Below are positions 12,962 through 50,762 of a stretch of DNA of 64,000 nucleotides, one piece after another (position 1 is the stretch's first letter; each line of letters starts with the position of its first letter). Position numbers and translations under genes: made by a program. The stretch lies in the NCBI GenBank assembly GCA_025352565.1, contig JANXTF010000070.1:62001-126000 (forward strand), in the 5' to 3' direction. Source of the DNA: Rhodospirillales bacterium. GTDB taxonomy: Bacteria; Pseudomonadota; Alphaproteobacteria; Acetobacterales; Acetobacteraceae. Under the pieces are notes generated by a model. The model made no database searches and had not been told where the DNA came from. It was given only the letters and a program-made list of their open reading frames with translations.

Positions 12962-13419
12962 TCCATGCCGGCTGGGAGCACCGGCTCGACCGCGCCGCCG
13001 AGGCCTGCGCGCGGGCCGGGGGCCGGCTGACCGAAATCCGCCGGCGGGTGCTGGGGCTGATCCTGGCCTCGCCCGAGCCGGTCGGTGCCTATGCGCTGCT
13101 CGATCGCCTCAAGGCCGAGAAGGGCAACGCCACCCCGGTCACGGTCTATCGCGCATTGGGCTTCCTGCAGGAGCACGGGCTCGTCCACAAGGTCGAGCGG
13201 CTGAACGCCTTCATCGGCTGCACCGAGGAGGGCGAGCACGCGCATCGCGGCCACGCCGTCCAGTTCCTGATCTGTCGCGTCTGCGGGACGGTCGTCGAGA
13301 TGGAGGATGCGGGCATCGCCGCCGCCATCGCCCACGCCGCCGCTCGCGCGGGGTTCTCGCCCTCCCGCGCCACGGTGGAGGTCGAGGGCAGGTGTGCCGC
13401 TTGCGGGACGCTCGGCTAG
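12958..13419 (+). CDS. zur: Fur-family regulator, probably the zinc-uptake regulator Zur
   Basis: A 153-residue Fur-family repressor. A winged helix region (ILASPEPVGAYALLDRL, TPVTVYRALGFLQEHGLV) is followed by the metal-binding part with EHAHRGH, a CRVC pair and a C-terminal CAAC pair for the structural zinc. The location directly upstream of znuA, with a palindromic operator in the gap, identifies it as Zur rather than Fur. Translation is taken from the GTG at 12958, which overlaps the cupin stop; the coding signal further left in this frame belongs to the cupin's other strand. Confidence 0.88.
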   Translation: MIHAGWEHRLDRAAEACARAGGRLTEIRRRVLGLILASPEPVGAYALLDRLKAEKGNATPVTVYRALGFLQEHGLVHKVERLNAFIGCTEEGEHAHRGHAVQFLICRVCGTVVEMEDAGIAAAIAHAAARAGFSPSRATVEVEGRCAACGTLG

Positions 13420-13427
13420 ACATAAAA

Positions 13428-13451
13428 AATGATACATTATATCATGTCATT
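13428..13451. promoter_or_regulatory. putative Zur operator upstream of znuA
   Basis: A 24-base AT-rich palindrome lies in the zur-znuA gap. The inner core is TGATA and TATCA around CATTA (13430-13444), and the outer arms are AATGA (13428-13432) and TCATT (13447-13451). It is 24 bases upstream of the znuA ATG, where a repressor would block transcription. Identification as a Zur site rests on position and symmetry. Confidence 0.65.
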
Positions 13452-13475
13452 CAACGCGGCGAAGGGCACCCGTAA

Positions 13476-18653: not shown

Positions 18654-20273
18654 TCAGAGCTGGCGTGACAGCAGGCCGCGCCCGATCACGTTGGCCTGGA
18701 TCTCGGCTGCCCCCTCGAAGATGTTCAGGATGCGGGCGTCGCACAGCACGCGGCTGATCTCGTATTCGAGCGCATAGCCGTTGCCGCCATGGATCTGGAC
18801 GGCGGCGTCGGCATTGCTCCAGGCCACGCGCGCGGCCAGCAGCTTCGCCATTCCCGCCTCGATGTCGCAGCGGTCCCCGGCATCCTTGGCGCGGGCGGCG
18901 AAATAGGTGAGTTCGCGGGCGATGATCGTTTCCACCAGCATCATTGCGAGCTTGTCCGACACACGCGGGAATGCCAGCAGGCGCTTGCCGAACTGCCGCC
19001 GTTCGAGCGCGTATCCGAGCGCGAGGTCGAGCGCGTTGCGCGCGACGCCCACGGCGCGGGCGGCGGTCTGGATGCGCGCACCTTCGAAGGTGCGCATGAG
19101 CTGGCGGAACCCGGCGCCGGTCTCGCCGCCGAGCAGCCCGTCGGCCGTCACCGCGAAGCCGTCGAACGACAGCACGTACTCCCTCATGCCGCGGTAGCCG
19201 AGCACCGCGATCTCGCTGCCCGCGAGCCCAGCGTCGGGGAATGGCGCGTCTTGCGTGCCGCGCGTTTTCGCGGCCAGGAACATCGACAGGCCGTTATGGC
19301 CGGGGACCGCCGCGCTCCGCGCCAGCACCGTCATCAGATCGCTGCGTGCCGCGTGGGTGATCCAGGTTTTCGAGCCCGTGATCCGCCAGCCATCCGCGGC
19401 ACGCTCCGCGCGGGTGCCGACAGAGGCGAGGTCCGAGCCGGTGTCGGGCTCGGTGAACACGGCGGTGGGCAGCACCCGCCCCGCGGCGATGCCGGGCAGC
19501 CAGCGCGCCTTTTGTTCAGGCGTGCCGTTGGCCCCAATCAGCTCGCCCGCGATCTCCGAGCGGGTGCCGAGCGACCCCGCCGCGATCCAGCCCCGGCTGA
19601 GTTCCTCCGACACCACGCACATCGCGAGCTTGCCGAGGCCGAGTCCGCCATATTCGGGGTCGATGCAGACGCCGAACACGCCCAGTTCGGCCATCTCGTC
19701 CACGATCGCATCCGGGATCAGCGCATCGGCCAGGTGCCATGCATGGGCGCCGGGTGCGATCCGCTCATCGGCGAAGCGGCGGAACTGGGTGCGGACCTGG
19801 TCGAGCGTTTCGTCGCCGAGCGAATCGTCTGGCCGCCAGCCTTCGGCGAGCCGGTCGGCCAAGGCGAGCCGCGTGGCTTGGTTGTTGCCGTGCTCCAGGA
19901 ACCAGGCCACTGCGGGAGTCCCGGCGAGCGCGGATGCGGCTTGCGCGGTTTCCAGGTCTTGCGGGCGGACGATCTCGTTCTGGCCCATCGGCAGGCCGCC
20001 GACCAATTGGGCCAGGTACTCGCCAAAGCCGATCCGCAGGAGAAGGTCCTCGCCGCCCCCGAGCCGCCCGGCCCAACTGGTCAGTTGCGCCAGCCCTTCC
20101 ACGAGCGTGGCGGTCCAGGCGAAGCCGTGGACGCGGCGTTGGTGGGCTTCGATCAGCGCCGGATCGACGCGGCCATCCTGCTCGACCGCTTGAAAGGTCG
20201 CGCGCTGGACATGGCGAAGATAGGCGCGCGCGGCGTCGCAGGCGGCTTCGGCATGTGCGGCCCCGGTCATCAT
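18654..20273 (-). CDS. mcd: (2S)-methylsuccinyl-CoA dehydrogenase
   Basis: A 539-residue acyl-CoA dehydrogenase with an extra N-terminal domain of about 145 residues. That extension contains [27 protein letters not shown], which matches what is known of Mcd, the FAD enzyme of the ethylmalonyl-CoA pathway that oxidises methylsuccinyl-CoA to mesaconyl-C1-CoA. The acyl-CoA dehydrogenase core follows ([40 protein letters not shown]). It is the last gene of the operon and overlaps mct by four bases. Electrons would go to ETF. The alternative, an unrelated ACAD with an N-terminal extension, is less likely given the partner gene. Confidence 0.82.
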
Positions 20274-21526
20274 GCGACCACGCCCCTGTCGTGCAGCCTT
20301 GCGTACTCGGCGCTGGACATGCCGAGAACCTCGGTCAGCACCGCCTCGGTGTGCTCGCCCAGCCTGGGAGCCCGCGCCGGCGGCAGGCGGCCCGTGGCGC
20401 CGAAGCCGAGGGGCTGGGCGTTCGCCATGATCGGCCCCACGCCGGGTTGCTCGATTTCGGCGAAGATGGGGTTGGCGATCGAACAGCGCGGGTCGTCATG
20501 GACCAGCTGGCCGAAATCCTGATACGGCCCCCACAGCACGCCGCTGCCCGCGAAGGCAGCGCCGATCTCGGGCAGCGTGTGACGCGCCACCCAAGGCGCC
20601 AGCAGGGCCGCGATGGCGTGGCGGGCCTCGAACCGGCCGCCCTCCTGGTCCAGGTCCACCTGCATCATCGGGCCGATCATCGCGAGCCGGGCCGCGAGCC
20701 CGGTGGCCTTGCCGATCGCGCGCCATTGGCGGTTCGAGATGGCGGCCAGCATGATGCGGCGGCCGTCGGCGGTGACGAAATCGCGCCCGAACGCGCCGTA
20801 CAACTCGTTTCCGAGCGGCGGGCGCACCGTGCCGTTCACCTGCACGTCGGCGACGTAACCGAGGTTGGAGACGCATGCGAGCATCACGTCGGCCAGCGAG
20901 AGAGTCACCTCCTGCCCCTGCCCGGTGCGCGCCCGGACGCGCTCGGCCGCGAGGAACCCGGTGGCGAGCGTGAGGCCGGCGGCGATGTCCCAGGCCGGCA
21001 GCACGTGGTTGACGGGCGCCTCTCCGCTGCCCGTGGCCATCGGGAAGCCGCTGGCGCAATTGACGGTGTAGTCGATGGCCGCACTGCCATCGGCGTTGCC
21101 GGTCAGCCGCATCATGATCAGGTCGGGGCGCGATGCCGAAAGGGCGGCATGGCTCATCCAGCCCGACGCGGACGGCAGGTTGGTCAGCAGGTTGCCCGCG
21201 CCGCAGATCAGGGCGCGCGCCAGTTCCTGGCCCTCGGGCAGGTTCAACGCCAGCGTGACGGAGCGCTTGGCCTTGTTCAGGCTCGCCCAATAGAGGCTGG
21301 TGCCATCGGGTGCCAACGGCCAGCGGGCGATATCGATGTTGCCGCCGAGCGGGTCGATGCGGATCACGTCGGCGCCCAACTGCGCCAGCGTCATGCCGCC
21401 CAGCGGGGCCGCGATGAAGGCGGACACCTCGACGATGCGGATGTCGCTGAGTGGATGGGTCATGGCGGTCAAGGCCTGTGGCGGCGTGTGGGGAGGGGGC
21501 GCGACTGAGGCAGCCGTTCGGATCAT
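20270..21526 (-). CDS. mct: 2-methylfumaryl-CoA isomerase / mesaconyl-CoA C1-C4 CoA-transferase
   Basis: A class III CoA-transferase fold protein of about 418 residues. Several segments agree with my memory of Mct from the Chloroflexus 3-hydroxypropionate cycle: [32 protein letters not shown] with the catalytic aspartate, and LYGAFGRDF. Mct moves CoA within mesaconate from C1 to C4. The start at 21526 overlaps the CapA-like stop (ATGA) and is used because no ribosome site precedes the alternative ATG at 21463; homology alone favours 21463, which removes a 21-residue proline-rich leader. It is coupled to mcd, whose product would be its substrate. Confidence 0.8.
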
Positions 21527-22671
21527 GCGGGCGAGACGAGAATTTCATCTCCATCCCAGGCGAAGCTCACCTTCAGGTTCTGCTCTTCCGATATAGCCTC
21601 GACATAGTCGAACACCTCCTGCGCCCGCGGGTCCGATCGTGCAAGCACTTCCGGCTCGAGATCGCGGTTGATGTAGGCCGGCAGGTAGGTCACCTTCGTC
21701 ACGGTTCCCTGCTCGACGTAGATCTTCGCCATGATCGTCTTGAGCGCATCGAAGTGATAGCGGTGTTTCGGATAATCCGGATGCAGCTTCACCCGGTGCA
21801 ATTCGGTGAGCAGGCGGCGGCTGTTGAAATCCCATCCACGAACCACATGGGGCGTGGTCCGGGTAAACTCGAAGGCAAAGTTGTTCATGCCGTAGAACAC
21901 GGCTTTGCCCTTGTACATCTCCACGCCCTTGAGGATGTGGGAGTGATGTTGCATTACCACGTCGGCGCCGCAATCGATCGCGCTGTAGGCAGCCTCCTTC
22001 TGATACATCGCGATGATGGACGGGGCGATATGAACGCCCGCGTGCATGGACACCACGACGACATCCACCTGCGGCCGCAGCGCGCGGATGTCGGCCTCCA
22101 TCGCCGCCTTGTCCTCGGCGAACAGATGGGTGACGACCAGGGGCGCCGTGCCCGCGTTGAAATCCACCTGCTCGTAGTAGCTGTGGGCGCGGAGCGGCGC
22201 GCAGCCCGGAATGGTCGCCTCAGCGGTCAGTCCGGGAGAGATGATCGAGAGATAGGCCAGGAACCCGACCTTCACGCCGTTGCGCTCGACGATCACCGGC
22301 TGGCGCGCCGCGTCGATGTTCTTGCCGGCGCCAACCACGGCGATGTCGTTCTGGCGCAGCACATCGAGCGTGTCGAAGAACGCGTCGTTGCCGAAATCCA
22401 TCGCGTGGTTGCAGGCGAACGACATCACATCGAACCTGGCGCCCTCCCGCCCCAGCGCGCGTACGTTGCTGGCGGGAAACTTCAGCGGCGTGTGCGGCGT
22501 GAAGGTCGGAGCGCCCCGGTCGGAGAGCGGTATTTCCATCTGTCCGAACACCAGATCGGCGGATCTGAACGCCTCGATGCAGTGCTGGAAAATCGTCGGC
22601 GGGTCATCGCGGTTGGAGGCGACGTCACCGACCGCGATAAGGACGAGGGACTTGTCGTTGGTGGATGTCAT
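21523..22671 (-). CDS. CapA-family protein (poly-gamma-glutamate-type metallophosphatase fold)
   Basis: A 382-residue protein of the CapA/PgsA family. It has the calcineurin-like metal-binding signature spread over VLIAVGDVASNRD, FACNHAMDFGND, VVVSMHAGVHIAPS and MQHHSHILKGVEMY. No signal peptide or transmembrane anchor is visible, unlike the capsule proteins, so a cytoplasmic hydrolase is plausible. The ATG at 22671 sits one base from the binding-protein stop. Its place between transporter genes and mct in a catabolic operon is unusual; it may hydrolyse an ester, phosphate or amide of the imported compound. Confidence 0.8.
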   Translation of the reverse strand: MTSTNDKSLVLIAVGDVASNRDDPPTIFQHCIEAFRSADLVFGQMEIPLSDRGAPTFTPHTPLKFPASNVRALGREGARFDVMSFACNHAMDFGNDAFFDTLDVLRQNDIAVVGAGKNIDAARQPVIVERNGVKVGFLAYLSIISPGLTAEATIPGCAPLRAHSYYEQVDFNAGTAPLVVTHLFAEDKAAMEADIRALRPQVDVVVVSMHAGVHIAPSIIAMYQKEAAYSAIDCGADVVMQHHSHILKGVEMYKGKAVFYGMNNFAFEFTRTTPHVVRGWDFNSRRLLTELHRVKLHPDYPKHRYHFDALKTIMAKIYVEQGTVTKVTYLPAYINRDLEPEVLARSDPRAQEVFDYVEAISEEQNLKVSFAWDGDEILVSPA

Positions 22672-22672
22672 G

Positions 22673-23704
22673 CTAATGCTTCTCCGCAAGTACGGCTGCC
22701 GCCGCCAAATCGTTGGTCCAGCCGGATTGCGCGACCTTCGGGCTGATCGTGGCGCCCGCTCCACGCTCGAATTCCAGCACCTGGTCGATCATCGGCTGGG
22801 TCAGTTGAACCGTCTTGGGGAACGCGGGCTCCATCGCTTTCCAGACCGCGTCGAACAGCACCTTGTCCGTCGATTTGTAATGCTTGGACCATACAAGGTC
22901 GCGCGCCTTTGGCGATTGCGCCGGGTCGTGGATCACGTCGAGCGCGCGCTGCAACCCGCGCAGCACCCCGATCACTTCCTTGCGGTGGGTGGCAACGTAG
23001 GATTCCTTGACGAGCACGCCCTGGTACATAAATCCGTCGAGAGCCTTGACTTCTCCGCCCACGAGATCGAGCAGCGTGACGGCGCCGAACTTCGACACCG
23101 CGATGTCGGGCACCGGCGGCGAGGCCGTCAGCGCGTCGATCGAGCCGTTCGCGAGCGCGGGCACCATGCCCGCCGTCCCACCGATCGACACGATGGTCAC
23201 GTCCCGCACCGGGTCAAGCCCCGCCTGACGGATGAGATAGCGCGCCACCGCGTCCGAACCGCTGCCGGGCTCGGTGATACCGATGCGTACGCCCTTCAAG
23301 GCCGCGAGCCTCTCCTTGTAGGGCGTGTCCTTCGTGATCTTGTACTTGGCCGCCCATTCCTTGGACACCACGAGGTTGCTCGCCATCTGGGTGATGACCG
23401 CGCCAACGGCTTGCGTGTCGACGCCTTTGCCGCGTGCCAGGAAGCTGGGCGGGATCGACTGGACGGTAACGTCCGTGTCCCCCGAGATGAGCGCCGCCGC
23501 GAGGCGCGAACCGGAGTTGATGTTCATCACCTCGACGGGGGTGCCGACTTGCGTCCACAGACCCAACACCTCAGCGGTGAACACGGGAATATAGAGCAGT
23601 CCGGTCGAGCCGAGCGTGAGCGTTACCGGCTTGTCCGCGAGGGCGGGCGTGCCGCCGAGCAAGCTCAGAGCGATGGCGGCCGCGAGCCATGGGGATCGTG
23701 TCAT
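22673..23704 (-). CDS. ABC transporter substrate-binding protein (NMT1/TauA-like)
   Basis: A 343-residue periplasmic protein with a Sec signal peptide (MTRSPWLAAAIALSLLGGTPALA). The mature protein starts KPVTLTLGSTGLLYIPVFTAE and has the GVRIGITEPGSGSDAVARYL segment of NMT1-type binding proteins. GGGAG lies about 12 bases upstream of the ATG at 23704. It belongs with the permease and ATPase just upstream in the operon and presumably binds the acid that feeds the CoA enzymes. Confidence 0.9.
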   Translation of the reverse strand: MTRSPWLAAAIALSLLGGTPALADKPVTLTLGSTGLLYIPVFTAEVLGLWTQVGTPVEVMNINSGSRLAAALISGDTDVTVQSIPPSFLARGKGVDTQAVGAVITQMASNLVVSKEWAAKYKITKDTPYKERLAALKGVRIGITEPGSGSDAVARYLIRQAGLDPVRDVTIVSIGGTAGMVPALANGSIDALTASPPVPDIAVSKFGAVTLLDLVGGEVKALDGFMYQGVLVKESYVATHRKEVIGVLRGLQRALDVIHDPAQSPKARDLVWSKHYKSTDKVLFDAVWKAMEPAFPKTVQLTQPMIDQVLEFERGAGATISPKVAQSGWTNDLAAAAVLAEKH

Positions 23705-23736: not shown

Positions 23737-24591
23737 TCAAACCGTGGTATTCTGCTGATGGTCGCCGGATTGCCACGGCATCACTTTCGTCTCGGCCACC
23801 TTCACTACCGCATTCAACAGCAGCGACAGCACGGTAATCGCGAACAACGCCGCGAACACGCCGGCCGTGTCGAACTGGCCCTGCGCCTGCGACAACATCG
23901 CGCCGAGGCCGCGGTTGGACGCGAACAACTCGCCCACGACCGCTCCGATGAGGGCGTATGGCACCGAGACCCGCAACCCCGCGAAGACCCATGTAAGGGC
24001 CGAAGGCAGCACCACCTTCGTCAACACATGGCGCCGGTTGGCACCCATCAGCCGCAGGATCGCGATGAGTTCCTGGCTGACCGCGCGGACGCCGGTATAG
24101 GTGTTGAGAAACACGAGGAAGAACACCGTGGCCGCTGAAAGGGCCACCTTCATGTTCAGGCCGATGCCGAACCAAAGAATGAACAACGGCGCGAGCGCTA
24201 CCTTGGGCAGGCTGTTGAAGCACAGCACCAGCGGGTTGAGCAGGTCTGCCAGCAGCTTCGACCAGCCCAGGGCCACGCCGAACAGGATGCCCAAGGCACC
24301 GCCCACGATGAAGCCAAGAAGCGCCTCCATCGCCGTGATCGAAGCATGATAGAGCAGGCTGCCGTCCAGCGTGGTTTCAACAATGACCGCGAAGATGGCA
24401 GTCGGGCGGCTGATGAAGAAATCCGAGATCAGCCGGCCCGACAGCAACTGCCACACTACCAGCAATCCGCCGATCAGGGCGGCCTGCATCATAAGCTGCC
24501 GAAGCGCTGGCGGGAATGCGCGCGGGCGGCTCGGTGCCCCTCCCGGCGCGGCGGCGGCGGCGCCCGCCTGGCTGGTCCCGATTACTTCCAC
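23737..24591 (-). CDS. ABC transporter permease, taurine/nitrate type
   Basis: A 284-residue inner-membrane permease with about six hydrophobic stretches starting near residue 36 (AALIGGLLVVWQLLS). The ATPase-contact loop is RAVSQELIAILRLMGANRRHVLTKVVLPSAL. It starts directly after the ATPase stop codon. The N-terminal GAAAAAPGGAPSRPR segment is a cytoplasmic tail without known function. Confidence 0.9.
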   Translation of the reverse strand: MEVIGTSQAGAAAAAPGGAPSRPRAFPPALRQLMMQAALIGGLLVVWQLLSGRLISDFFISRPTAIFAVIVETTLDGSLLYHASITAMEALLGFIVGGALGILFGVALGWSKLLADLLNPLVLCFNSLPKVALAPLFILWFGIGLNMKVALSAATVFFLVFLNTYTGVRAVSQELIAILRLMGANRRHVLTKVVLPSALTWVFAGLRVSVPYALIGAVVGELFASNRGLGAMLSQAQGQFDTAGVFAALFAITVLSLLLNAVVKVAETKVMPWQSGDHQQNTTV

Positions 24592-25374
24592 CTAGCCCTC
24601 CATGCCGCTTGTGGTGGCGAGGATATCCCAAAGATCGCTCGTCACCTGCGCGAAGGCGGGGTTCCGGCGCAATTGATAGAGGTCTCGGTCCGGCATCATC
24701 GGCGATTTGATGACCTCGCGAATGGTGCCGGGACGACCGGAGAATACCAGAATGCGGTCGCCGAGTGCCGCCGCCTCGTCGAGGTCATGCGTCACGAACA
24801 ATACCGTCTTTTTCAACCGCCGGCAAAGGCCGAGCAGCTCGGTTTGCATCTTCAGGCGGAGCTGTGCGTCCAGCGCCGCGAAAGGCTCATCCATCAGCAG
24901 TGTTTCGGGGTCGTAGGCGAACAGCCGGGCCAACGCCGTCCGCTTCTTCATGCCGCCGGACAACTGGGAAGGGTAGGCATGTTCGAACCCGGCCAATCCC
25001 ACGGTCTGGATCAGGTCGGCCACCCGGGCCGTCCGGTCTCTTTTGGAGAGTCCCGCGATCTCCAAGGGCACGCGAATGTTCCCTTCGACATCCCGCCAGG
25101 GCAGCAGATGGTCGTTCTGGGTCATGTAGCCACTACGTTGATTTAACGTGGCTACCTTCTGGCCGGCATAACGGACTGTCCCCGCAGTGGGGCTGAACAG
25201 CCCCGCCGTCATGTTCAGCAGCGTCGACTTGCCGCAGCCCGAGGGCCCGACCACGGTGACGAATTCGCCCTTGGCCACTTCGAACGACACGTCCTGCACG
25301 GCCTCGACGGTGCCGCGGGCGGTCTGGAATGTTTTCGAGACATGCTCGAACGAGATGAGCGGGTCAGCGGTCAT
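24592..25374 (-). CDS. ABC transporter ATP-binding protein
   Basis: A 260-residue ATPase of the NitD/TauB group. Walker A is GPSGCGKST at residues 43-51, the signature is LSGGMKKRTALARLF, Walker B is TLLMDEPFAALDAQ and the H-loop is VTHDLDEA. The ATG at 25374 overlaps the CoA-transferase stop by four bases, coupling substrate activation to transport. Upstream sequence in the same frame is antisense-like and was left out. Confidence 0.93.
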   Translation of the reverse strand: MTADPLISFEHVSKTFQTARGTVEAVQDVSFEVAKGEFVTVVGPSGCGKSTLLNMTAGLFSPTAGTVRYAGQKVATLNQRSGYMTQNDHLLPWRDVEGNIRVPLEIAGLSKRDRTARVADLIQTVGLAGFEHAYPSQLSGGMKKRTALARLFAYDPETLLMDEPFAALDAQLRLKMQTELLGLCRRLKKTVLFVTHDLDEAAALGDRILVFSGRPGTIREVIKSPMMPDRDLYQLRRNPAFAQVTSDLWDILATTSGMEG

Positions 25375-26606: not shown

Positions 26607-27482
26607 TTAGGTGGAAGCCGTGAAGTACTCGTCGGAACGCCGCATCGCCTCTTGCAACCCATGCGCCCTTGCTTCGCGGAGAAAGTTGAACTCGCCCTCG
26701 CGAAAATGGACGTTCGTACCCCATCCCGCGACAACGCTTGCCGCGGCGAAGCCGAGGTCGATCTGCATCTTGGCCAGAGAGGCGAACACCACTTGCTTCT
26801 CGGCCGTGATCGCATCACGCATCACCAGGGCGCATCGTTTGGCGAGTTCGGTCACACCGGCCGAAACCGCATTGGCCGCCACGACCTCGTCGAGCAGCCC
26901 ATAACGCTGCGCTTCCGCGGCCGACCACTCGGCGCCTGCGTAGATCATCTCCTTCGCGCGCTTCAGTCCAACGGTCGCGATGAGAAGCGAGATATCGCCG
27001 TTCACGCCCACATGCCGCCAACGCCTGCAACCGAAGCGCACGGTGTCGGTGGCGACGACCAGATCGGCGCATAAGGCAAGATGGAGGCCGACCTCGAAGC
27101 AGGCGCCCTGTGCCGCAAGGATGGTGACTTTTCGGCTGTGCAGCAGGCGGTGAAACAGTCCGTCCGGCCCCCACCAGGCATCATCCGCCGCCATCAGCCG
27201 GGCGCGCTGGCTGGGCACTTTTCCCTCGGCGCCCCCCGGCGCCGCCCGGATTGCGCTCTCAGCCTCTGCCGGGTCGTAGCCATGTGTGAGGTCCGGCCCG
27301 GTCGCGTCGAGAACGATCACCTTTACCTGATCGTTCACGGCGAATGCCGCGATCACGTCGGATATCTGCCGCGCCATCGGCGTGGAAACGACGTTGCCAT
27401 CGAGCGGCCGGTTGATCGTGATGCGCCCGATCAGGCCGCCGTCGTCCTCGGTGACGAGGATATCGCCGGGATCGGTCATCAT
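26607..27482 (-). CDS. crotonase-fold protein 1, both catalytic glutamates missing
   Basis: A 291-residue protein of the enoyl-CoA hydratase superfamily. The fold is clear from ILAAQGACFEVGLHLALCADL and LKRAKEMIYAG. The position of the first catalytic Glu (GGGxELA in hydratases) is His here (VGLHLAL), and the second (FGxPE) reads FGCRR. A standard hydration mechanism is therefore unlikely. Other crotonase activities, such as isomerase, ring cleavage, dehalogenation or a structural subunit, are possible. It is the third of three consecutive crotonase genes, each overlapping the next by four bases. Confidence 0.82.
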   Translation of the reverse strand: MMTDPGDILVTEDDGGLIGRITINRPLDGNVVSTPMARQISDVIAAFAVNDQVKVIVLDATGPDLTHGYDPAEAESAIRAAPGGAEGKVPSQRARLMAADDAWWGPDGLFHRLLHSRKVTILAAQGACFEVGLHLALCADLVVATDTVRFGCRRWRHVGVNGDISLLIATVGLKRAKEMIYAGAEWSAAEAQRYGLLDEVVAANAVSAGVTELAKRCALVMRDAITAEKQVVFASLAKMQIDLGFAAASVVAGWGTNVHFREGEFNFLREARAHGLQEAMRRSDEYFTAST

Positions 27483-28168
27483 GCGGCCCGCATCGCGGCG
27501 GCATAGAACGGGATGTGGTCGAATTCCTCACCCACACCCTGGCCGTCGAGATACGACTCCATCATGAGCTTCGACATCGCGATTCCATCCAGCGGCATCT
27601 TGCAACAGTCCCGCGCGAGCCGGCGGGCCGCATCTCCCAACACGGCTGGGGGCACGGTCTGGTTCACCAACCCGATATCCCTCGCTCGATCCGCGTCCAG
27701 GTCGTCATCCGACACGATCCAGGATTTCGCGCGGTTCAAACCGATGGTCAGCGCCGTCATCACGAAGCCCGCTTCGGGCAGAGCGGCAAACGGAGAGGAG
27801 AACGTGGCGTCCGTGCTGGCAATCGTCAGATCCGCATACAGCGCCAGGAGACTGCCGGCACTCGTGCAGCGTCCGTGGACCGCGGCAAGAGTGACTTTCC
27901 GCGAGAAACACCAGGTTTGATACAAACCTCCCGCGGATGCGAAACTGCTCAACCACTCGCTGTCCGGGACGCTGGCGCCATGTTCTCCGTCCGCGCAGAA
28001 ATCCGCATCGGGGCTGGTAAGCAGCAGCACCTTGATGTCGTCCCGATCGTCGAACGACCGGATGGCCCCGCATAATTCGCGCCCGAATGCCACGTCATGC
28101 GCGGTCAGCCGCGGCAGCCCAGCGACCGAGAGAATGGCGGTCGAACCTTCAATGGAAATCGCTATCAT
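27479..28168 (-). CDS. crotonase-fold protein 2, short, catalytic glutamates missing
   Basis: A 229-residue crotonase-superfamily protein, shorter than the usual 255-290. Recognisable segments are LLLTSPDADFCADGEHG, VHGRCTSAGSLLALYADL and IGLNRAKSWIVSDDD. Leucine replaces the first catalytic Glu (AGSLLAL) and phenylalanine the second (FSSPF). The C-terminal helices used for trimer contacts appear reduced. It overlaps both neighbouring crotonase genes by four bases, so the three are made together and may form a mixed oligomer. Confidence 0.78.
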   Translation of the reverse strand: MIAISIEGSTAILSVAGLPRLTAHDVAFGRELCGAIRSFDDRDDIKVLLLTSPDADFCADGEHGASVPDSEWLSSFASAGGLYQTWCFSRKVTLAAVHGRCTSAGSLLALYADLTIASTDATFSSPFAALPEAGFVMTALTIGLNRAKSWIVSDDDLDADRARDIGLVNQTVPPAVLGDAARRLARDCCKMPLDGIAMSKLMMESYLDGQGVGEEFDHIPFYAAAMRAA

Positions 28169-29097
28169 GATTGTGCCGATTCGGGAGCGGCCAGAACCTC
28201 GTCGCGATGCGACTTGTCTTTGGCCAAGGCCGCGCGGACGCCGCCTTTCTTGACCTGCTTCCAGAAGCTGAGCTCATCCTCGCCCGGACGCAGGAAATGC
28301 GAGAACAGCAATCCCGTCATCGTCGGCACGGTGGCGCCCAGCAGCGCCTCGCCCGCCTTAACCCGCAGCTTCAGATAACGCAGGGATGACGCGGACCGTT
28401 GGGCGATCTCGGCCGCCAGCCGCATCGTCACCGCTTCCAATCGCGCGGACGGAACGCTGAGATAGGCCAGCCCGCCGGCCTGTGCTTCCGCGCCGGACAT
28501 CGGGTCCGCCGTATAGCCAAGCCGCTTGGCCCGCCGCATTCCAAGGATACGGTTGAGATGGATGCTGGATACGGCACCGGCTGGCCCGAGAAACCGGCCC
28601 TCGAGAGCGCCAAGCTTCGCATCCTCGCTGACCACCACGAGGTCGCATTTGGTCGCCAGCGTGAAGTAGGAGAGGGCCACGCAATAGCCATGGATCTGCA
28701 CGATCGTGATCTTGTCGCTGCGCGAAATCGCCTGCGCGAAGCCCTGTCGGCCCCACGTCATGTCGCTGCCGTAGCGCGTCGCGTCGGTCAGCGTGTAGCG
28801 CTTCTTGCCGGGAGCGCGCTGCCCCCAATCCTCGTTGATCTCCGCCCCGCTTGACAGCGACGGGCCTTCGCCGCGGATCACCACCACCCGAATCGCGGCC
28901 TCGTCGTTCACCTGGCGCATCAGCTGGGTGATGCGCTCGCGCATCGGCACCGTGAGAGCGTTGTGCTTCTCGGGCCGGTTCAACGTGAGCGTGGCAACCC
29001 CGGAGGCGGCATCGAGCCGCAGAAGCACCTGATTCTCAGCCGCCGCGCGGCTCTCGACCGTCCCGAACGCGCTCATGCGGGGTCCTGCCAAGTCCAT
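28165..29097 (-). CDS. crotonase-fold protein 3, one catalytic glutamate retained
   Basis: A 310-residue enoyl-CoA hydratase/isomerase family protein and first gene of the ten-gene operon. The oxyanion-hole segment LSSGAEINE is intact. The first catalytic Glu is replaced by Thr (YFTLATKCD), but the second remains in LGALEGRFLG. Enoyl-CoA isomerases also rely on a single Glu at this place, so isomerase chemistry is possible. An N-terminal extension of about 15 residues and a long C-terminus (HFLRPGEDELSFWKQVKKGG) make it longer than typical hydratases. Confidence 0.82.
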   Translation of the reverse strand: MDLAGPRMSAFGTVESRAAAENQVLLRLDAASGVATLTLNRPEKHNALTVPMRERITQLMRQVNDEAAIRVVVIRGEGPSLSSGAEINEDWGQRAPGKKRYTLTDATRYGSDMTWGRQGFAQAISRSDKITIVQIHGYCVALSYFTLATKCDLVVVSEDAKLGALEGRFLGPAGAVSSIHLNRILGMRRAKRLGYTADPMSGAEAQAGGLAYLSVPSARLEAVTMRLAAEIAQRSASSLRYLKLRVKAGEALLGATVPTMTGLLFSHFLRPGEDELSFWKQVKKGGVRAALAKDKSHRDEVLAAPESAQS

Positions 29098-29223: not shown

Positions 29224-30144
29224 ATGAACCTGAGGCAATTACAATATGTCCGTGAGATTGCCCGCAATGGTTTGAGCATCTCCAAGGCCGCCAAGCTCCT
29301 GAACACCTCGCAGCCCGGTGTCAGCCAGCAGGTGATCGCTCTCGAGCAGGAACTCGGCGTAATAATTTTCACCCGCGACAAAAATCGCCTCACCGGCATC
29401 ACCGCCCGCGGCCAAGGCGTGCTGGAACACGCCGAGGCGGCGTTGTTCAACGTCGATTGCGTGTACTCGATTTCAAAGGCCGTCGAGCACAAGGCACGCA
29501 AAGAGCTTGTCATTGCGACCTCGCACACGCAGGCCCGTTATCTGCTGCCGCAGGCATTCAGCCGTTTCGCGGCGGCTCATCCAGACGTCCACCTGATCGT
29601 CAGGCACGATGCGCAAAACCGAATGCTCGATTTGCTCCTCGACGGCGACGTCGACCTCGCGATTACCACGGCGACCGCCGAGCGGAGCCGTGACGAGATC
29701 ATCATGCTGCCGTGCTACGAAAGCCGGCGCGTTGTGGTCGTGCCGGCCGGCCATGCGCTCCTCGATCTCGATGCGGTCACGTTTCAAGATCTGGCCCGCT
29801 ACGATCTGATCACATATCACGAATCGATCCCCACCAGGCGGCTCATCATGGAGACATTCGCCCGCAACGGCGCCCTGCCCACGGTGCGTCTCAGTGCAAT
29901 CGATTCGGACGTCATCAAAGCCTACGTGGCCCACGGGCTCGGCATTTCGATCCTGCCGGAGATCACCGTCAGCCCGCGAACCGACCCGGATCTTCGCATC
30001 ATCACCACGCCGATCCTGTTTCCGCCCAGCGTCACCAGCGTGATGGTCAACCGGCGCAAGACGATCAGTTCCCATACGATCGACTTCATCAAGCTGTTCT
30101 GCACCAACATCTCGCTGCCCGCCTCGTTGACCGGGGCGCGGTGA
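29224..30144 (+). CDS. LysR-family transcriptional regulator (CysB-like)
   Basis: A 306-residue LysR protein. The N-terminus MNLRQLQYVREIARNGLSISKAAKLLNTSQPGVSQQVIALEQELG is a clear winged helix, of the kind found in the CysB/Cbl branch (MxLxQLxYV), and the effector domain follows from about residue 90 (ELVIATSHTQARYLLP). The ATG at 29224 is used because GGGGCCAGG precedes it; an ATG at 29212 is an alternative. It is divergent from the ten-gene operon and presumably controls it, perhaps in response to the imported acid. Confidence 0.92.
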   Translation: MNLRQLQYVREIARNGLSISKAAKLLNTSQPGVSQQVIALEQELGVIIFTRDKNRLTGITARGQGVLEHAEAALFNVDCVYSISKAVEHKARKELVIATSHTQARYLLPQAFSRFAAAHPDVHLIVRHDAQNRMLDLLLDGDVDLAITTATAERSRDEIIMLPCYESRRVVVVPAGHALLDLDAVTFQDLARYDLITYHESIPTRRLIMETFARNGALPTVRLSAIDSDVIKAYVAHGLGISILPEITVSPRTDPDLRIITTPILFPPSVTSVMVNRRKTISSHTIDFIKLFCTNISLPASLTGAR

Positions 30145-30274: not shown

Positions 30275-31645
30275 ATGAAGCCATCCCAACATATTGCCAT
30301 CGCAACCGGCACACCGGGCGAGCGCCGGCGGATCGGTGTGGCACTTCGGAACAACGTGTCGCGACACGCCCAAGCTGAATGGGCCGTGCCCGCCGACCGG
30401 CGCGATCCTGTCGAAATTCTGATGGGTCAGGGCAAGGATCGGCTTCCGGAACTGCTGCCAATTCGATATGCGCGGATGAGTACGGATCCGTTTGCATTCC
30501 TGCGCGGCGCCGCGGCCATCATGGCCGCGGATCTTGCCCGAACGCCATCGGCGGGCATTCGTATGCAGTCTTGCGGTGATGCACATCTCAGCAACTTTGG
30601 CAGCTATGCGACACCCGAAGGCTTGCCGGTATTCGACATCAACGATTTCGACGAGACTCTGCCCGCCCCGTTCGAATGGGATCTCAAACGGCTGGCGACC
30701 AGCCTTGTCGTAGCCGGGCGCGTTGGACAGTATTCCGAGAAGGCCGCACGCGCGCTCGCGCGTACCGTCGCTCGCTCGTATCGCGAGCATATGGCGGAAT
30801 TCGCGCGTCTCCCGCCACTCCAGGCCTGGAACCAGCGCGTCGACCTTGCCCGCGCCGTAGCGGCTATTGATCAGATCAAGCTTCGAAACACGGTGGAAAA
30901 ACGTCTCGCCCGCGTGCTGGAGAGCGGCGCAAGCCAGTTTAACCTTCTTGAGGAGAAGGACGGCCACCTCCGTATCCGAGACAAGCGGCCGCTGGTTTAT
31001 CATTTGGATATGCATGCCTTGCCGGCCCGCAAAGCGCTTTCGTCGTATGCCGAGACGCTACAGGAGGACCGTCGGGTGCTGCTGCAGCGTTATAGCCTTC
31101 GCGATGTCGCCTTCAAGGCGGTTGGGGTCGGCAGTGTCGGCACGTTCTGCGCGATTGGCCTGCTTACGGCGGGTGACGGCTCGCCGCTTCTCCTGCAGAT
31201 CAAGGAGGCGCGGGAATCGGTGCTCGCGCCCTTTGCCGGTAGCTCCGACTATTCGAACCACGGAGAACGCGTGGTGGTTGGGCAAAGATTGATGCAGGCG
31301 GCCACCGATATGTTCCTCGGATGGATTCCTTCGCTGATCGATAAGCGGCATTTCTATGTCAGGCGACTCAAGGACTCGCGGCTGGCCGATATTGGATCGC
31401 TGCTCCAGGCGGCGTTGCCGTTTTATGCCGCGCTCTGCGGCCAGACCTTGGCGAGGGCGCATGCTCGGGCAGGCGATCCGGCTCTTGTCTCAGGATATGC
31501 CGGTAACGGCACTGATCTGGACGAGGCGATCAGCGAATTTGCGTTCGCCTATGCCAAACAAACCGAGGCGGATTGGAATGCTTTCCTTGCGGCAATCAAG
31601 GCTGGCCGCATCGTGGCGACGGCGCCGGAGTCTCCGAAGAGCTGA
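30275..31645 (+). CDS. DUF2252 family protein
   Basis: A 456-residue protein of the DUF2252 family. Typical segments are RMSTDPFAFLRGAA, SCGDAHLSNFGSYATPEG, FDINDFDETLPAPFEWDLKRLATSL and GVGSVGTFC. The family resembles a kinase-like (aminoglycoside phosphotransferase-type) fold, with GDAHLSNFG and DINDFDE as the catalytic-loop and metal-binding counterparts, but its reaction is not established. It is the first gene of a block unrelated to the surrounding catabolic genes. Confidence 0.88.
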   Translation: MKPSQHIAIATGTPGERRRIGVALRNNVSRHAQAEWAVPADRRDPVEILMGQGKDRLPELLPIRYARMSTDPFAFLRGAAAIMAADLARTPSAGIRMQSCGDAHLSNFGSYATPEGLPVFDINDFDETLPAPFEWDLKRLATSLVVAGRVGQYSEKAARALARTVARSYREHMAEFARLPPLQAWNQRVDLARAVAAIDQIKLRNTVEKRLARVLESGASQFNLLEEKDGHLRIRDKRPLVYHLDMHALPARKALSSYAETLQEDRRVLLQRYSLRDVAFKAVGVGSVGTFCAIGLLTAGDGSPLLLQIKEARESVLAPFAGSSDYSNHGERVVVGQRLMQAATDMFLGWIPSLIDKRHFYVRRLKDSRLADIGSLLQAALPFYAALCGQTLARAHARAGDPALVSGYAGNGTDLDEAISEFAFAYAKQTEADWNAFLAAIKAGRIVATAPESPKS

Positions 31646-31672
31646 GTGTCGGCGGGACACGCGTGCATGTGA

Positions 31673-32134
31673 CTACGGGATGGGCTCGCCCCTTTGCTTC
31701 CTTCCGTACATCACCTCTTCTTCGAGCATTTTGGTCTGCTCCGCCAGGACGACGTCTTGCGCCTCCAACACCCTGTCCTGTTTGAGCAGGTCCACCATCA
31801 TCTCTTCCTGTTTCTCCAGCATGGTGATGATCTGGCTGTAGGTTCGCTGCTGCTCTTCATAGGATTTCGCCAACCGTTCATGATCGAGCTGAGAGCGACT
31901 TTCCGCTTCCCGACCCAGGATATTCGTGCCCACCAGGATCAGAGGTAACGACCATAGCTGGACCCAGTTGGACCAGTAGAGGAAGGCCTCTTGATAGGGA
32001 TGCAGGATGGCGAAGGCCGGCAGCAACCCGTAGACCATGAAGGCATAGCAGATCCACATGGTTCCGAACGCTTTGGTGAGCCAGACCGCGATCGCCTCGT
32101 TGATCATGCCCAATTTCCCGGTCATCTCCCGCAA
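31673..32134 (-). CDS. small membrane protein with a coiled-coil tail
   Basis: A 153-residue protein that I cannot assign to a named family. Two hydrophobic segments (about residues 20-42 and 53-72, the latter WVQLWSLPLILVGTNILG) are followed by a long charged helix (about 75-145, LDHERLAKSYEEQQRTYSQ and MLEKQEEMMVDLLKQD) with heptad character. The pattern suggests a membrane-anchored coiled coil facing the cytoplasm; DUF1003-type proteins look similar. The start could also be the ATG at 32107. It lies opposite to its neighbours DUF2252 and mbfA. Confidence 0.7.
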   Translation of the reverse strand: MREMTGKLGMINEAIAVWLTKAFGTMWICYAFMVYGLLPAFAILHPYQEAFLYWSNWVQLWSLPLILVGTNILGREAESRSQLDHERLAKSYEEQQRTYSQIITMLEKQEEMMVDLLKQDRVLEAQDVVLAEQTKMLEEEVMYGRKQRGEPIP

Positions 32135-32153
32135 CCCCCATTGTTCGACCCCG

Positions 32154-32187
32154 ATTCCGGGCCTTCTGCCAATGCCGCACCCGGAAT
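32154..32187. repeat. inverted repeat in the gap before mbfA
   Basis: ATTCCGGG (32154-32161) and CCCGGAAT (32180-32187) are exact inverted copies 18 bases apart, just upstream of the small membrane protein gene and about 180 bases before mbfA. It may be an operator or a stem-loop; nothing more can be said. Confidence 0.3.
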
Positions 32188-32367
32188 TCGCACGGACGAG
32201 AGCAATGGCCTAGTCTTCCTGGGAGGGCGAGCGTAAACCAACGATGGTCCGGGTCCGGGGCGTGCATCTCACCGGAAAACATTAATAAGCGCGCCAAATC
32301 CTGCCCGGCAACCAATAGCCTCGAGGTCGTGTTTCTCGAAGGCAATCTGTGAAAGTCAGCAACCAGC

Positions 32368-33369
32368 ATGTCAGCCGCTCTGCCCAGGTTCAGCTCGTGG
32401 AGAAATTCCCGGCGTCGTCGGTTTACTGATTTGACCGATCCAGAGGTTCTCGCGCTTGCGATCAGCAACGAGGACGAAGCTGCCAAAACGTATGCCGGTT
32501 TCGCCGAGAGCCTGCACGCCGACTATCCCGACACAGCCCGGCTGTTCGTCGAGATGGCGGAGGAGGAGACCGAGCACAAAGAGCGGTTGCTTGCGCTGTT
32601 CACGGAGAAATTCCGGGGGACAGTCCCGGTCATCCTGGCGAGGAACGTTTCGGGCATCGCCCAGGAAAGCCCCTCGTGGGTCGTGAAACCGCAGGGCCCG
32701 CAGGGCATGCGCAACCAGGCCGCGAAGATGGAGGAGGCGGCGACCCGCTTCTACCATCGTGCCGCCAGCCGTATCTCCGATCCTGCCATCAGAGGCGTTC
32801 TGGCGGAGCTTGCAGCGGCCGAGGCCGCGCACGAGAACACGGCGAGCGAAATCGACCCGAACGCGCCGCCCACCCCGGCCCGGGTCGAGGAGACCGAGAG
32901 CGCGAGAAAGCGTTTTGTTCTCCAAATCATCCAGCCCGGCCTTGTGGGTCTGATGGACGGCTCGGTGTCCACCCTGGCGCCGGTTTTCGCCGCAGCCTTC
33001 GCCACCCATAATTCCTGGAACGCCTTTCTGGTGGGGATGGCGGCCTCGCTCGGTGCGGGCATCTCCATGGGCTTTGCCGAGGCCCTGGCGGACGATGGCA
33101 AGCTTTCCGGTCGCGGGACACCGTGGCTGCGCGGCCTGATCTGCGGGCTGATGACGGTGGCGGGCGGCATCGGCCATACCATCCCGTACCTCATCCCCAG
33201 CTTCTGGACCGCGACTGCCGTCGCCGGGGTCGTCGTCGTGGCGGAGTTGGGCACGATCGCATGGATCCAGTGGCGCTATATGGATACCCCGCCCATCTCG
33301 GCCATGGCCAAGGTCATGCTCGGCGGCGCACTGGTTCTGGTAACGGGCATCCTCATCGGAAGCAGTTGA
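32368..33369 (+). CDS. mbfA: membrane-bound ferritin-like iron exporter (Er-VIT1 family)
   Basis: A 333-residue protein with two parts. Residues ~20-165 are a ferritin-like (erythrin) domain with the paired glutamates and histidines of a di-iron site (AISNEDEAAKTYAGFAE, MAEEETEHKERL, AEAAHENTAS). Residues ~180-333 are a CCC1/VIT1-type membrane domain (QPGLVGLMDGSVSTLAPVFAAAFA). This is the MbfA architecture known from Bradyrhizobium and Agrobacterium, where it exports iron and is controlled by Irr. No clear Irr box was recognised upstream. Confidence 0.9.
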   Translation: MSAALPRFSSWRNSRRRRFTDLTDPEVLALAISNEDEAAKTYAGFAESLHADYPDTARLFVEMAEEETEHKERLLALFTEKFRGTVPVILARNVSGIAQESPSWVVKPQGPQGMRNQAAKMEEAATRFYHRAASRISDPAIRGVLAELAAAEAAHENTASEIDPNAPPTPARVEETESARKRFVLQIIQPGLVGLMDGSVSTLAPVFAAAFATHNSWNAFLVGMAASLGAGISMGFAEALADDGKLSGRGTPWLRGLICGLMTVAGGIGHTIPYLIPSFWTATAVAGVVVVAELGTIAWIQWRYMDTPPISAMAKVMLGGALVLVTGILIGSS

Positions 33370-33372
33370 CCC

Positions 33373-34062
33373 GTGTTGTTCCTCCAGACGGTACTCGCAC
33401 TGGCGGTCGCGTTTGTCCTCGGGACCGCCATCGGATTCGAGCGCCAGTGGAGACAGCGTACTGCCGGACTGCGCACTACCGTCCTGGTGGCTACCGGGGC
33501 TGCGGCCTTCAGCGACCTGGGCTTGCGGCTTGAGGGGACCGAGGGCGCGGTCCGCATCATCGCCTACGTCGTGTCTGGCATCGGCTTCCTCGGCGCCGGC
33601 GTCATCCTCAAGGACGGCATGCACATCCGCGGGTTGAATACGGCGGCGACTCTGTGGTGCTCGGCCGCCGTGGGCACCTTTTGCGGGGCCGGGCTGCCTG
33701 CGGAGGGCGTGGCCCTGACGCTGTTCGTGCTGGCTGGAAACACGCTGCTGCGGCCACTGGTCAATTGGGTCAACCGTCGTCCCATCAGCGAAGGAACGAC
33801 GGAAGCCCAGTATCGCGTCCACGTGACGTGTGAGCGGGACAATCTGTCCGCGGTCCGCGACCTGCTCGACGAGGCATTACAGCGGGCGAGCTACCCGGTC
33901 CGGGACGTCCAGACCCTGTCCGAGGGGGAAGATCAGGTGGAACTTGCCGCCGTGCTGGTACCCACGACGGCGGACCCGGCGGAGCTCGACGCTGTCGTTG
34001 CCGAGTTGGAGAATTCAGGGTTCGTGAAATCCGCGACCTGGACAGTCGGGGCCACAGCGTAA
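33373..34062 (+). CDS. MgtC/SapB family membrane protein
   Basis: A 229-residue protein with an N-terminal MgtC/SapB membrane domain of about four to five helices (FVLGTAIGFERQWRQRTAGLRT, VSGIGFLGAGVILKDG, LNTAATLWCSAAVGTFCG) and a cytoplasmic ACT-like C-terminal domain (residues ~145-229). The family affects magnesium homeostasis and ATP synthase or potassium control. It starts with GTG at 33373, three bases after the mbfA stop, and is probably co-transcribed with it. Confidence 0.9.
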   Translation: MLFLQTVLALAVAFVLGTAIGFERQWRQRTAGLRTTVLVATGAAAFSDLGLRLEGTEGAVRIIAYVVSGIGFLGAGVILKDGMHIRGLNTAATLWCSAAVGTFCGAGLPAEGVALTLFVLAGNTLLRPLVNWVNRRPISEGTTEAQYRVHVTCERDNLSAVRDLLDEALQRASYPVRDVQTLSEGEDQVELAAVLVPTTADPAELDAVVAELENSGFVKSATWTVGATA

Positions 34063-34268: not shown

Positions 34269-35429
34269 ATGAGCGGCCCGCTCGCCGGTGTGCGGGTGAT
34301 CGACCTCACGATCAATGTGCTGGGGCCATACGCCACCCAGGTTCTCGGCGACATGGGAGCGGACGTCATCAAGATCGAGACGCCCGCCGGAGACCATAAC
34401 CGGCATAACGGCCCCTCGCGCAACGACGGCATGTCCGCCTTGTTCATGTCCAACAACCGCAACAAGCGCAGCTTTGTCCTCAACCTCAAGGACGCGGGTG
34501 ACCTGAAAACGCTGATGCAGCTAGTCGAGACTGCGGATGTGTTCATCCACAGCATGCGCGCCACCGCGGCACAGCGCCTGGGGGTGAGCTATGCCGATAT
34601 CGCGGCCCGCAATCCGCGCATCATCTACGGTTATGGCTGCGGCTATAGCCAGAGTGCCCGCAAGGCGAATCTTCCCGCCTACGACGACGTGGTCCAGGGC
34701 GAAAGCGGGCTGGTCGGCCTCGTCGAGGCCGTTACCGGAGACGCTCGGTTCGTGCCTACCATCGTCGTCGATAAACTCGCGGGCACCGTTCTGGCGTCAG
34801 CCGTCGGCATGGCGCTGTTCCACCGCGAACGCACCGGGCTCGGTCAGGAACTTACCGTCCCGATGCTGGAAACCACCGTCTCGTTCCTGATGTCGGAACA
34901 TCTTTGGGAAGGGGTGCACAAGCAACCTCAGCCGGTGCTCGGCTATCCGCGCCTGTTCAATTCGCGGCCCCTGGCGACCGCTGACGGCCACATCGCGCTG
35001 TTGGCCATTAGCGACCTTCAATGGCAGGCGGTGTTCAAGGCGCTCGGCAGGGATGATCTGCGGTGCGACGAACGCTTCGTCACGATGAAGCAGCGCGCCT
35101 CGAATTTCCCGGAACTCTACCGTATCCTAGGCCTCATGACGTCGCCAAAGTCGACCGAGCACTGGCGGCAGGTGTTCGATGAAGCGGATATTCCGAACGG
35201 ACCGATCAATTCACTGGCCGACGTGTACCACGACCCGTATCTGCGGGAGAGCGGGTTCTGGGTGGATTACGAGCACCCAACCGAAGGCGCCTGCGTCACG
35301 CCGGCCATCGTGCCGCATTTCAATGGTTCCCCCGGAACCCTGCGGCGACCGCCCCCACGCCTGGGCGAGCATAACACGGAGATCCTCGCTGAACTCGCGG
35401 ATAAGCGGGTGCCTGCAATCGAGCGGTGA
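34269..35429 (+). CDS. class III CoA-transferase (CaiB/BaiF family)
   Basis: A 386-residue family III CoA-transferase with the signature RVIDLTINVLGPYATQVLGDMGADVIKIE, the catalytic aspartate predicted in TIVVDKLAGTVLASA, and GLGQELTVPMLETT. The ATG at 34269 fits the family N-terminus (MSGPLAGVRVIDL). Upstream in-frame ATG codons would add unrelated residues. It may act with the flavin monooxygenase 177 bases downstream. Its last ~107 bases are duplicated as a remnant at 30147-30248. Confidence 0.9.
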   Translation: MSGPLAGVRVIDLTINVLGPYATQVLGDMGADVIKIETPAGDHNRHNGPSRNDGMSALFMSNNRNKRSFVLNLKDAGDLKTLMQLVETADVFIHSMRATAAQRLGVSYADIAARNPRIIYGYGCGYSQSARKANLPAYDDVVQGESGLVGLVEAVTGDARFVPTIVVDKLAGTVLASAVGMALFHRERTGLGQELTVPMLETTVSFLMSEHLWEGVHKQPQPVLGYPRLFNSRPLATADGHIALLAISDLQWQAVFKALGRDDLRCDERFVTMKQRASNFPELYRILGLMTSPKSTEHWRQVFDEADIPNGPINSLADVYHDPYLRESGFWVDYEHPTEGACVTPAIVPHFNGSPGTLRRPPPRLGEHNTEILAELADKRVPAIER

Positions 35430-35605: not shown

Positions 35606-36916
35606 ATGCCGCGCCATATGCATCTGCTCAGTTTTCCGGAACACCTCGAAGGCGTGCATTACGCCTTGAGCCAGAGCAAACACAATCCCGCCGAAGTTGG
35701 ATTCCGAGGTGCGCTCAGCATTCGCTATTGGCAGAACGTCGCGAAAACGCTGGAGCGGGGGTGTTTCGACGGCATATTCTTTGCCGATTCCGGCGCCATC
35801 TACGATCTGTACAAAGGACGCGCTGACGAGGCCATAAAATACGGCGTCGGCTGGCCGAAACACGATCCCATGCCGATGCTGACGCCGATGAGCGCCGTCA
35901 CCGAGCATCTTGGTTTCGCCTTCACCATGTCGACTGCCTCCAACATGCCGTATCCAGCGATGCGGCTGATCTCGACGCTGGATTTCCTGACCGACGGACG
36001 GGTGGGATGGAATATCGTCACCGGCAATGCGCGCATGGAATACGAGGCGGTCGGCCTGGGCGAGATGGATCATGACGAACGCTACGATCGCGCCGACGAA
36101 TATATGGCCATCTGCCGCCAGATCTGGGCCGGCATCGAACCCGATGCCATCATTATGGATGCGGCGAGAGGGATCGTAGCCGATCCCGCCAAGGTCGGCC
36201 GCATCGACTACGCGGGGAAATACCTGAAGTCGCGTGGCGTGCCATTGGTCGTACCCTCGATCCAGGGCAAGCCCGTGCTGTTCCAAGCAGGTTCGTCCGG
36301 GCGTGGCGAGAAGTTCGCACTCGAAAACGCCGATGTGATGTTTTCGATCCAGCCCGATACACCGTCGATGAAGACCTATAATGCCAAGTTGAACGAAGCC
36401 GCCCGCCAAGCCGGGCGCGAGGACGCCAAGGTGATTTTCGGGATCCAGGTTGTCCTGGGCAGCACCGAAGCCGAAGCCAGGCTCCGGCACGAGGAAATGC
36501 TGTCGCGTTTCCCGCTGGAAGCCTCGTTGACGCGGCTTTCCGGCGCACTGGGCATGGATCTCAGCAAAGTCGATCTGGACAGCCCGATCGAGGAATGGCC
36601 GACCCAGGCATCTCGCGGTTTCATGAAGGCCGTGTCTGGCAAGGTCGGCGGACGACGGCTGACGCTGCGCGAGGTTGCCGCGAGTTGGGCGACCTCGATC
36701 GGCACGCCGCACATTGTGGGCACCCCCGAGCAGGTGGCGGCCGGAATGGAAACCATGTGGCGCGAAACCGCCTGCCACGGGTTCAATGTCCGACTGACTA
36801 CGATCCCCGACAGCATGGAAGAGTTCGTCGATACCGTCGTGCCGCTTTTGCAGAATAGAGGCGTATTCCGGCGCGAATACGGGGGGATGACATTCCGTGA
36901 AAACCTCCTCTCCTGA
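35606..36916 (+). CDS. LLM-class flavin-dependent monooxygenase (NtaA/SnaA/DszA family)
   Basis: A 436-residue FMNH2-dependent monooxygenase of the NtaA/SoxA/DszA group. Typical segments are WQNVAKTLERGCFDGIFFAD, LISTLDFLTDGRVGWNIVTG, the YDRADEYMAICRQIW helix and PVLFQAGSSGRGEKFA. These enzymes oxidise chelators such as nitrilotriacetate, or thiophene sulfones, alkyl and terpenoid substrates, using reduced FMN from a separate reductase, which is not seen here. GGGG precedes the ATG by about nine bases. The gene probably belongs with the CoA-transferase just upstream. Confidence 0.9.
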   Translation: MPRHMHLLSFPEHLEGVHYALSQSKHNPAEVGFRGALSIRYWQNVAKTLERGCFDGIFFADSGAIYDLYKGRADEAIKYGVGWPKHDPMPMLTPMSAVTEHLGFAFTMSTASNMPYPAMRLISTLDFLTDGRVGWNIVTGNARMEYEAVGLGEMDHDERYDRADEYMAICRQIWAGIEPDAIIMDAARGIVADPAKVGRIDYAGKYLKSRGVPLVVPSIQGKPVLFQAGSSGRGEKFALENADVMFSIQPDTPSMKTYNAKLNEAARQAGREDAKVIFGIQVVLGSTEAEARLRHEEMLSRFPLEASLTRLSGALGMDLSKVDLDSPIEEWPTQASRGFMKAVSGKVGGRRLTLREVAASWATSIGTPHIVGTPEQVAAGMETMWRETACHGFNVRLTTIPDSMEEFVDTVVPLLQNRGVFRREYGGMTFRENLLS

Positions 36917-50740: not shown

Positions 50741-50762
50741 AGCGACAGCGATGGAGAGAGCA

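Follow-up and report, generated by a model that had tools for sequence, protein, structure and literature searches.

Three overlapping crotonase-fold genes without the canonical hydratase glutamate pair lead a conserved CoA-transferase and transporter operon in Acetobacteraceae

A 64,000-nucleotide stretch of DNA from a Rhodospirillales bacterium (the window) carries three consecutive genes, g1, g2 and g3 in transcription order, which encode crotonase-fold proteins without the glutamate pair of canonical enoyl-CoA hydratases. They open an operon whose order is conserved in a second genus, and all three are intact and under purifying selection. On balance, g1, g2 and g3 are probably three different non-hydratase crotonases degrading an imported, CoA-activated compound under LysR control. 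The default annotation of a crotonase is often enoyl-CoA hydratase. With three members that cannot be canonical hydratases at its head, this conserved operon offers a good prospect of finding new CoA-thioester chemistry. It is also a place to test mixed crotonase complexes with non-catalytic members.

The triplet spans positions 26607-29097 of the minus strand, with a four-base overlap at each of both junctions (Table 1). ORF coordinates and PF00378 matches agree with a previous sequence-only reading of this DNA, which had described three consecutive crotonase genes of 310, 229 and 291 residues overlapping by four bases. Overlaps of this length occur at five of the nine junctions from g1 to acd, those outside the triplet being caiB1/ATPase, capA/caiB2 and caiB2/acd. 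Because they are common across the operon, they say little about complex formation and were rejected as a sign of it.

Table 1. Genes of the triplet locus and its surroundings in the window, with counterparts on contig L003 of a second genome
Feature	Position in window	Strand	Family match	Counterpart in L003 (identity; position)
acd, acyl-CoA dehydrogenase with N-terminal extension	18654..20273	-	PF00441/02770/02771	
caiB2, class III CoA-transferase nearest 2-methylfumaryl-CoA isomerase	20270..21526	-	TIGR04253 453 bits, cut-off 725	
CapA/PGA_cap-like protein	21523..22671	-	PF09587 9.6e-54	85%
NMT1/SsuA-like substrate-binding protein	22673..23704	-	PF13379/PF09084	74%
ABC transporter permease, GTG start	23737..24591	-	PF00528	84%
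ABC transporter ATPase	24592..25374	-	PF00005	76%
caiB1, class III CoA-transferase, 403 aa	25371..26582	-	PF02515 8.5e-118	81%
g3, crotonase-fold protein, 291 aa	26607..27482	-	PF00378 4e-21	68%; L003:5710-6579
g2, short crotonase-fold protein, 229 aa	27479..28168	-	PF00378 2.3e-17	63%; L003:5006-5713
g1, crotonase-fold protein, extended C-terminus, 310 aa	28165..29097	-	PF00378 1.7e-27	78%; L003:4098-5009
LysR-type regulator, CysB-like, divergent	29224..30144	+	PF00126/PF03466	81%
caiB3, class III CoA-transferase	34272..35429	+	PF02515	82%; L003:2809-1685

Scanning the contigs of relatives with g2 located the triplet in one other genome, a Rhodospirillales MAG of the same family and another genus (JANXSM010000077.1, contig C46 of genome G018; here L003). 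There, the order g1-g2-g3 and the four-base overlaps recur, and the triplet is followed by caiB1, the ABC ATPase and permease, the NMT1-like binding protein and the CapA-like gene, with LysR and caiB3 divergent and upstream. The rest of the conserved operon genes show 74-85% identity between the two genomes. Ratios of pN/pS (NG86-type counts, dS above 1) were 0.24 for g1, 0.32 for g2 and 0.34 for g3, with no stops, and the other conserved core genes tested ranged from 0.17 to 0.28; a value of 0.67 for caiB2 from the same comparison concerns non-orthologues and was left out. All three triplet genes are intact and under purifying selection, and the pN/pS values and intact frames rule out decay into pseudogenes. 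The sequence-only reading had taken the fixed order to argue against simple redundancy, and the recurrence of order and overlaps in a second genus, with selection on all three genes, bears this out. Its alternative of a triplet unique to this genome and decaying does not hold.

Searches for further orthologues covered samples of larger groups, from which absence elsewhere cannot be read: 385 genomes of the class for g1, and 398 of the phylum and 397 of the family for g3, yielded only the own genome and G018. The CapA-like gene is restricted like the triplet (own genome and G018 only, among 200 family genomes at E<=1e-60). Matches in plasmid records were all below 60% identity, the best listed being near 30%, and viral contig scans found no additional triplet-like sequences. 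The triplet is rare but maintained, neither decayed nor unique. Near both ends of L003, the conserved block is flanked by ORFs (530-1579 and 12984-13475) that we take to be transposases and to suggest mobility of the block.

The conserved core consists of LysR, caiB3, g1-g3, caiB1, the ABC transporter and the CapA-like gene, and holds neither a thiolase nor a 3-hydroxyacyl-CoA dehydrogenase. caiB2 and acd form a separable accessory module outside the core, since their orthologues (80% and 57-59% identical, respectively) lie together on a different contig of the L003 genome (L065), near genes for a thiolase-like protein, an AMP-forming ligase and a phosphorylase-family protein. The CapA-like gene of L003 is adjoined not by these orthologues but by another CaiB gene (43% identical), then a transposase-like gene. 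Directly beside LysR in L003, caiB3 is separated from it in the window by DUF2252, rubrerythrin-VIT1 and MgtC genes (30275-34062), which reflects either an insertion in the window or a loss in L003. The LysR-type regulator scores 285 bits against NF009327, below the cut-off of 402. A literature search returned no report of a CaiB plus crotonase operon for Acetobacteraceae.

Several neighboring genes are of interest in themselves. The CapA-like gene (21523-22671) lies inside a CoA-catabolic operon and weakly matches the model of the lasso peptide epimerase MslH. A luciferase-like monooxygenase gene (35606-36916) directly follows caiB3; its best G018 match is 38% identical and on another contig, and as far as the data reach it is outside the conserved core. 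The same catabolic region encodes an AtuA-family (acyclic terpene utilisation) protein at 39382-40779.

All three triplet proteins belong to the crotonase (ECH_1) superfamily by their PF00378 scores (96.8 bits for g1, 63.6 for g2 and 75.9 for g3; cut-off 27), as do g2 and g3 by modelled fold. Each scores below the curated cut-off of every NCBIfam model: g1 and g3, nearest to PRK08272, reach half of the nearest cut-off or less (g1 128.8 bits against NF006128, cut-off 257), and g2, nearest to PRK08290, under one third. Against the PaaG isomerase model TIGR02280, g2 scores 53.9 bits (cut-off 345).

Mutual identity among g1, g2 and g3 is only about 20-28%. A tree of 55 crotonases joins each of them to its L003 counterpart, fully supported and on a long branch; g1 and g3 form a supported (95/84) but long-branch group together with another protein, and g2 stands apart and is not placed among the PaaG-like proteins. 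The low identity and separate long branches rule out a recent tandem triplication, and the three would be old paralogues at most. A crotonase encoded beside a CaiB gene in G031 (L028:1471-2340) groups with g1 (95/78, long branches) and keeps the glutamate at the Glu164 position.

Residues at the positions of rat crotonase Glu144 and Glu164 were read from an alignment that combines the triplet with the genome's 19 other PF00378 proteins, one of them a canonical hydratase (...CELAMMCD...GQPEI...). Three MAFFT modes agreed on Thr/Glu in g1, Leu/Phe in g2 and His/Arg in g3, reproducing the pairs of the sequence-only reading, and none of the three proteins has both glutamates of a canonical enoyl-CoA hydratase. 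The g1 residues, Thr146 and Glu166, are spaced by twenty residues as in rat crotonase. With Leu107 and Phe127, g2 has no polar residue at either position, and a conserved Glu132 in LPEAG follows a few residues past Phe127, in the same loop as the VPDxG of the PaaG-like paralogues L042 and L046. In g3, the residues are His134 and Arg154 (Trp155 instead of Arg154 if one residue is inserted), and a conserved Asp163 lies in a GD motif. Because of three- to four-residue deletions in the loop, the aligned positions of Glu132 in g2 and Asp163 in g3 could be off by one or two residues.

Identical between both triplet genomes are T146 and E166 of g1, F127 and E132 of g2, and H134, R154, W155 and D163 of g3. 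Leu107 of g2 is replaced by Ile in L003, and His111 of g3, the residue most like His90 of 4-chlorobenzoyl-CoA dehalogenase, by Asn. In both genomes, g2 stops about 30-40 residues short, without the EGxxAFxEKR part found at the C-terminus of usual crotonases.

Most other crotonases of this genome (11 of 19) lack at least one of the two glutamates: both are kept in eight, one in two and none in nine. Several of the Glu-less proteins exceed the curated cut-offs of named families. L042 and L046 (TIGR02280) have Phe at the Glu164 column and an Asp in VPDxG, which we take to be Asp136 of PaaG, and paralogue L053 has V/H at the two positions with AGDH and resembles the beta-diketone hydrolase type. 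Since glutamate loss is ordinary in this genome, degenerate positions are no proof of inactivity, and with this within-genome control the loss of Glu144/Glu164 is by itself no evidence of it. The sequence-only description of "fully inactive-looking" paralogues fails on this count, given also that glutamate loss is known in active PaaG and in 3q1t; its suggestion of an unusual crotonase reaction is the stronger part of its proposal. It had further allowed for glutamates at shifted positions, and Glu132 of g2 and Asp163 of g3 nearly fit this, lying at the third catalytic position or close by.

AF2 models of g2 (pLDDT 77, pTM 0.80) and g3 (pLDDT 74, pTM 0.74), single chains of middling confidence built from seven-row alignments, show the crotonase fold and superpose on crotonases (VIA best Z 25.7 and 27.4, respectively). 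The helix after the loop starts at the candidate acids in both models (131-142 in g2 and 161-171 in g3), which agrees with the third-acid position, short of proof. Residues 211-229 of the g2 model have a pLDDT under 50 as a monomer.

From the gene context and conserved residues, we infer a degradative role under LysR control with catalysis by each triplet protein. The ABC transporter would import a compound and the CaiB-type CoA-transferases would charge it with CoA, while the LysR regulator would control the operon opened by the triplet. g1-g3 would carry out non-hydratase steps, e.g., a double-bond shift, C-C or C-hetero bond cleavage, or hydrolysis. The candidate acting residues are the single glutamate Glu166 with Thr146 in g1, Glu132 in g2, close to the third-acid position on which PaaG relies, and His134/Asp163 in g3. 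Being C-terminally truncated and without a polar residue at either canonical position, g2 could be non-catalytic.

As a non-catalytic or allosteric partner, g2 might pack with g1 and/or g3 trimers in one mixed complex, a tentative reading that is the main rival but that we consider rather unlikely. It is suggested by the shortness of g2, whose last 35 residues are nearly identical in both genomes yet poorly folded as a monomer, and by overlapping pairs of short and full crotonases in relatives. In L066, a short crotonase (Ser/Glu, 3713-4363) overlaps a full one (Glu/Glu, 4360-5115); in L067, a short crotonase ORF ending at 4499 overlaps a full one at 4496-5251 (Ser/Glu and Glu/Glu); and near 49461-50803 of G111:C19, matches to a short and a full crotonase are adjacent. 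Such tandem pairs are candidate natural hetero-crotonases. Precedents are PaaF-PaaG, a hetero-dodecamer built from two crotonases that serve a single pathway, and BoxC, which has two crotonase domains with an active centre in only one (PMC4498308). Given these precedents and the pairs in relatives, a mixed complex is plausible. However, PaaF-PaaG consists of stacked homotrimers of two active enzymes rather than mixed trimers (PMC4498308), and the frequency of overlaps in the operon and the low mutual identity of the three proteins also count against it. The stricter version, one obligate hetero-oligomeric crotonase in which the truncated, Glu-less g2 would complete or regulate the active sites of g1 and g3, is improbable. 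We know of no previous description of a three-component crotonase.

An ordinary beta-oxidation hydratase/isomerase set, with a relaxed choice of residues and no unusual chemistry, would fit the crotonase fold and the frequent glutamate loss in the genome, and Glu166 of g1 alone would suit a delta3-delta2-enoyl-CoA isomerase. This is quite improbable for a conserved core that lacks thiolase and 3-hydroxyacyl-CoA dehydrogenase genes and for proteins that match no model over an equivalog cut-off. That g2, and perhaps g3, lost function after duplication is highly improbable: both lack the canonical glutamates, g2 is shortened, and their pN/pS is slightly above that of g1, but the frames are full-length in both genomes with pN/pS near 0.3 at dS above 1, and gene order and candidate residues are conserved. 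Three different non-hydratase crotonases is the reading that we favor, and each protein has likenesses among known systems.

The PRK08272 and PRK08290 subfamilies, with PDB entries 3njb/3njd (M. smegmatis) and 3ome/3t3w, are among the known systems closest to the triplet proteins. 3njb aligns with g1 and g3 across almost their full length, and 3njb and 3t3w, like the triplet proteins, lack the usual Glu pair in alignments. Entries of this type carry only a generic hydratase name, and no triplet is described for them.

PaaG is an active crotonase with catalytic Asp136 (PMC7497051). g2 resembles it in that the loop which carries a Phe and an acid in the PaaG-like paralogues does so in g2 too; however, g2 is shorter, far diverged and apart in the tree, and the annotated genes in its surroundings include no other paa gene.

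The M. avium crotonase 3q1t, in which Val and His occupy the two positions, has been reassigned as a likely beta-diketone hydrolase acting via Asp155 and His146 (PMC3584854). In crotonase-fold beta-diketone hydrolases (ABDH, 3q1t), His and Asp replace the glutamates, and g3 keeps His134 and Asp163, but the His is at the Glu164 position in 3q1t and at the Glu144 position in g3. 4-Chlorobenzoyl-CoA dehalogenase (1jxz/1nzy) is also a match of g3, though not the best one (sequence 4e-9, structure Z 26.7). Its catalytic residues are Asp145, His90 and Trp137, and Trp155 and Asp163 of g3 are presumably spaced like Trp137 and Asp145. g3 does not have the full set, as Asp163 and Trp155 are conserved and His111 is not. 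For g1, the likeness is to p-hydroxycinnamoyl-CoA hydratase/lyase (HCHL), with about 61 bits to PDB 2vss/2j5i and 98 bits against NF006588, far below the equivalog cut-off of 276. Thr146 and Glu166 of g1 resemble what we take to be their HCHL equivalents, Ser123 and Glu143.
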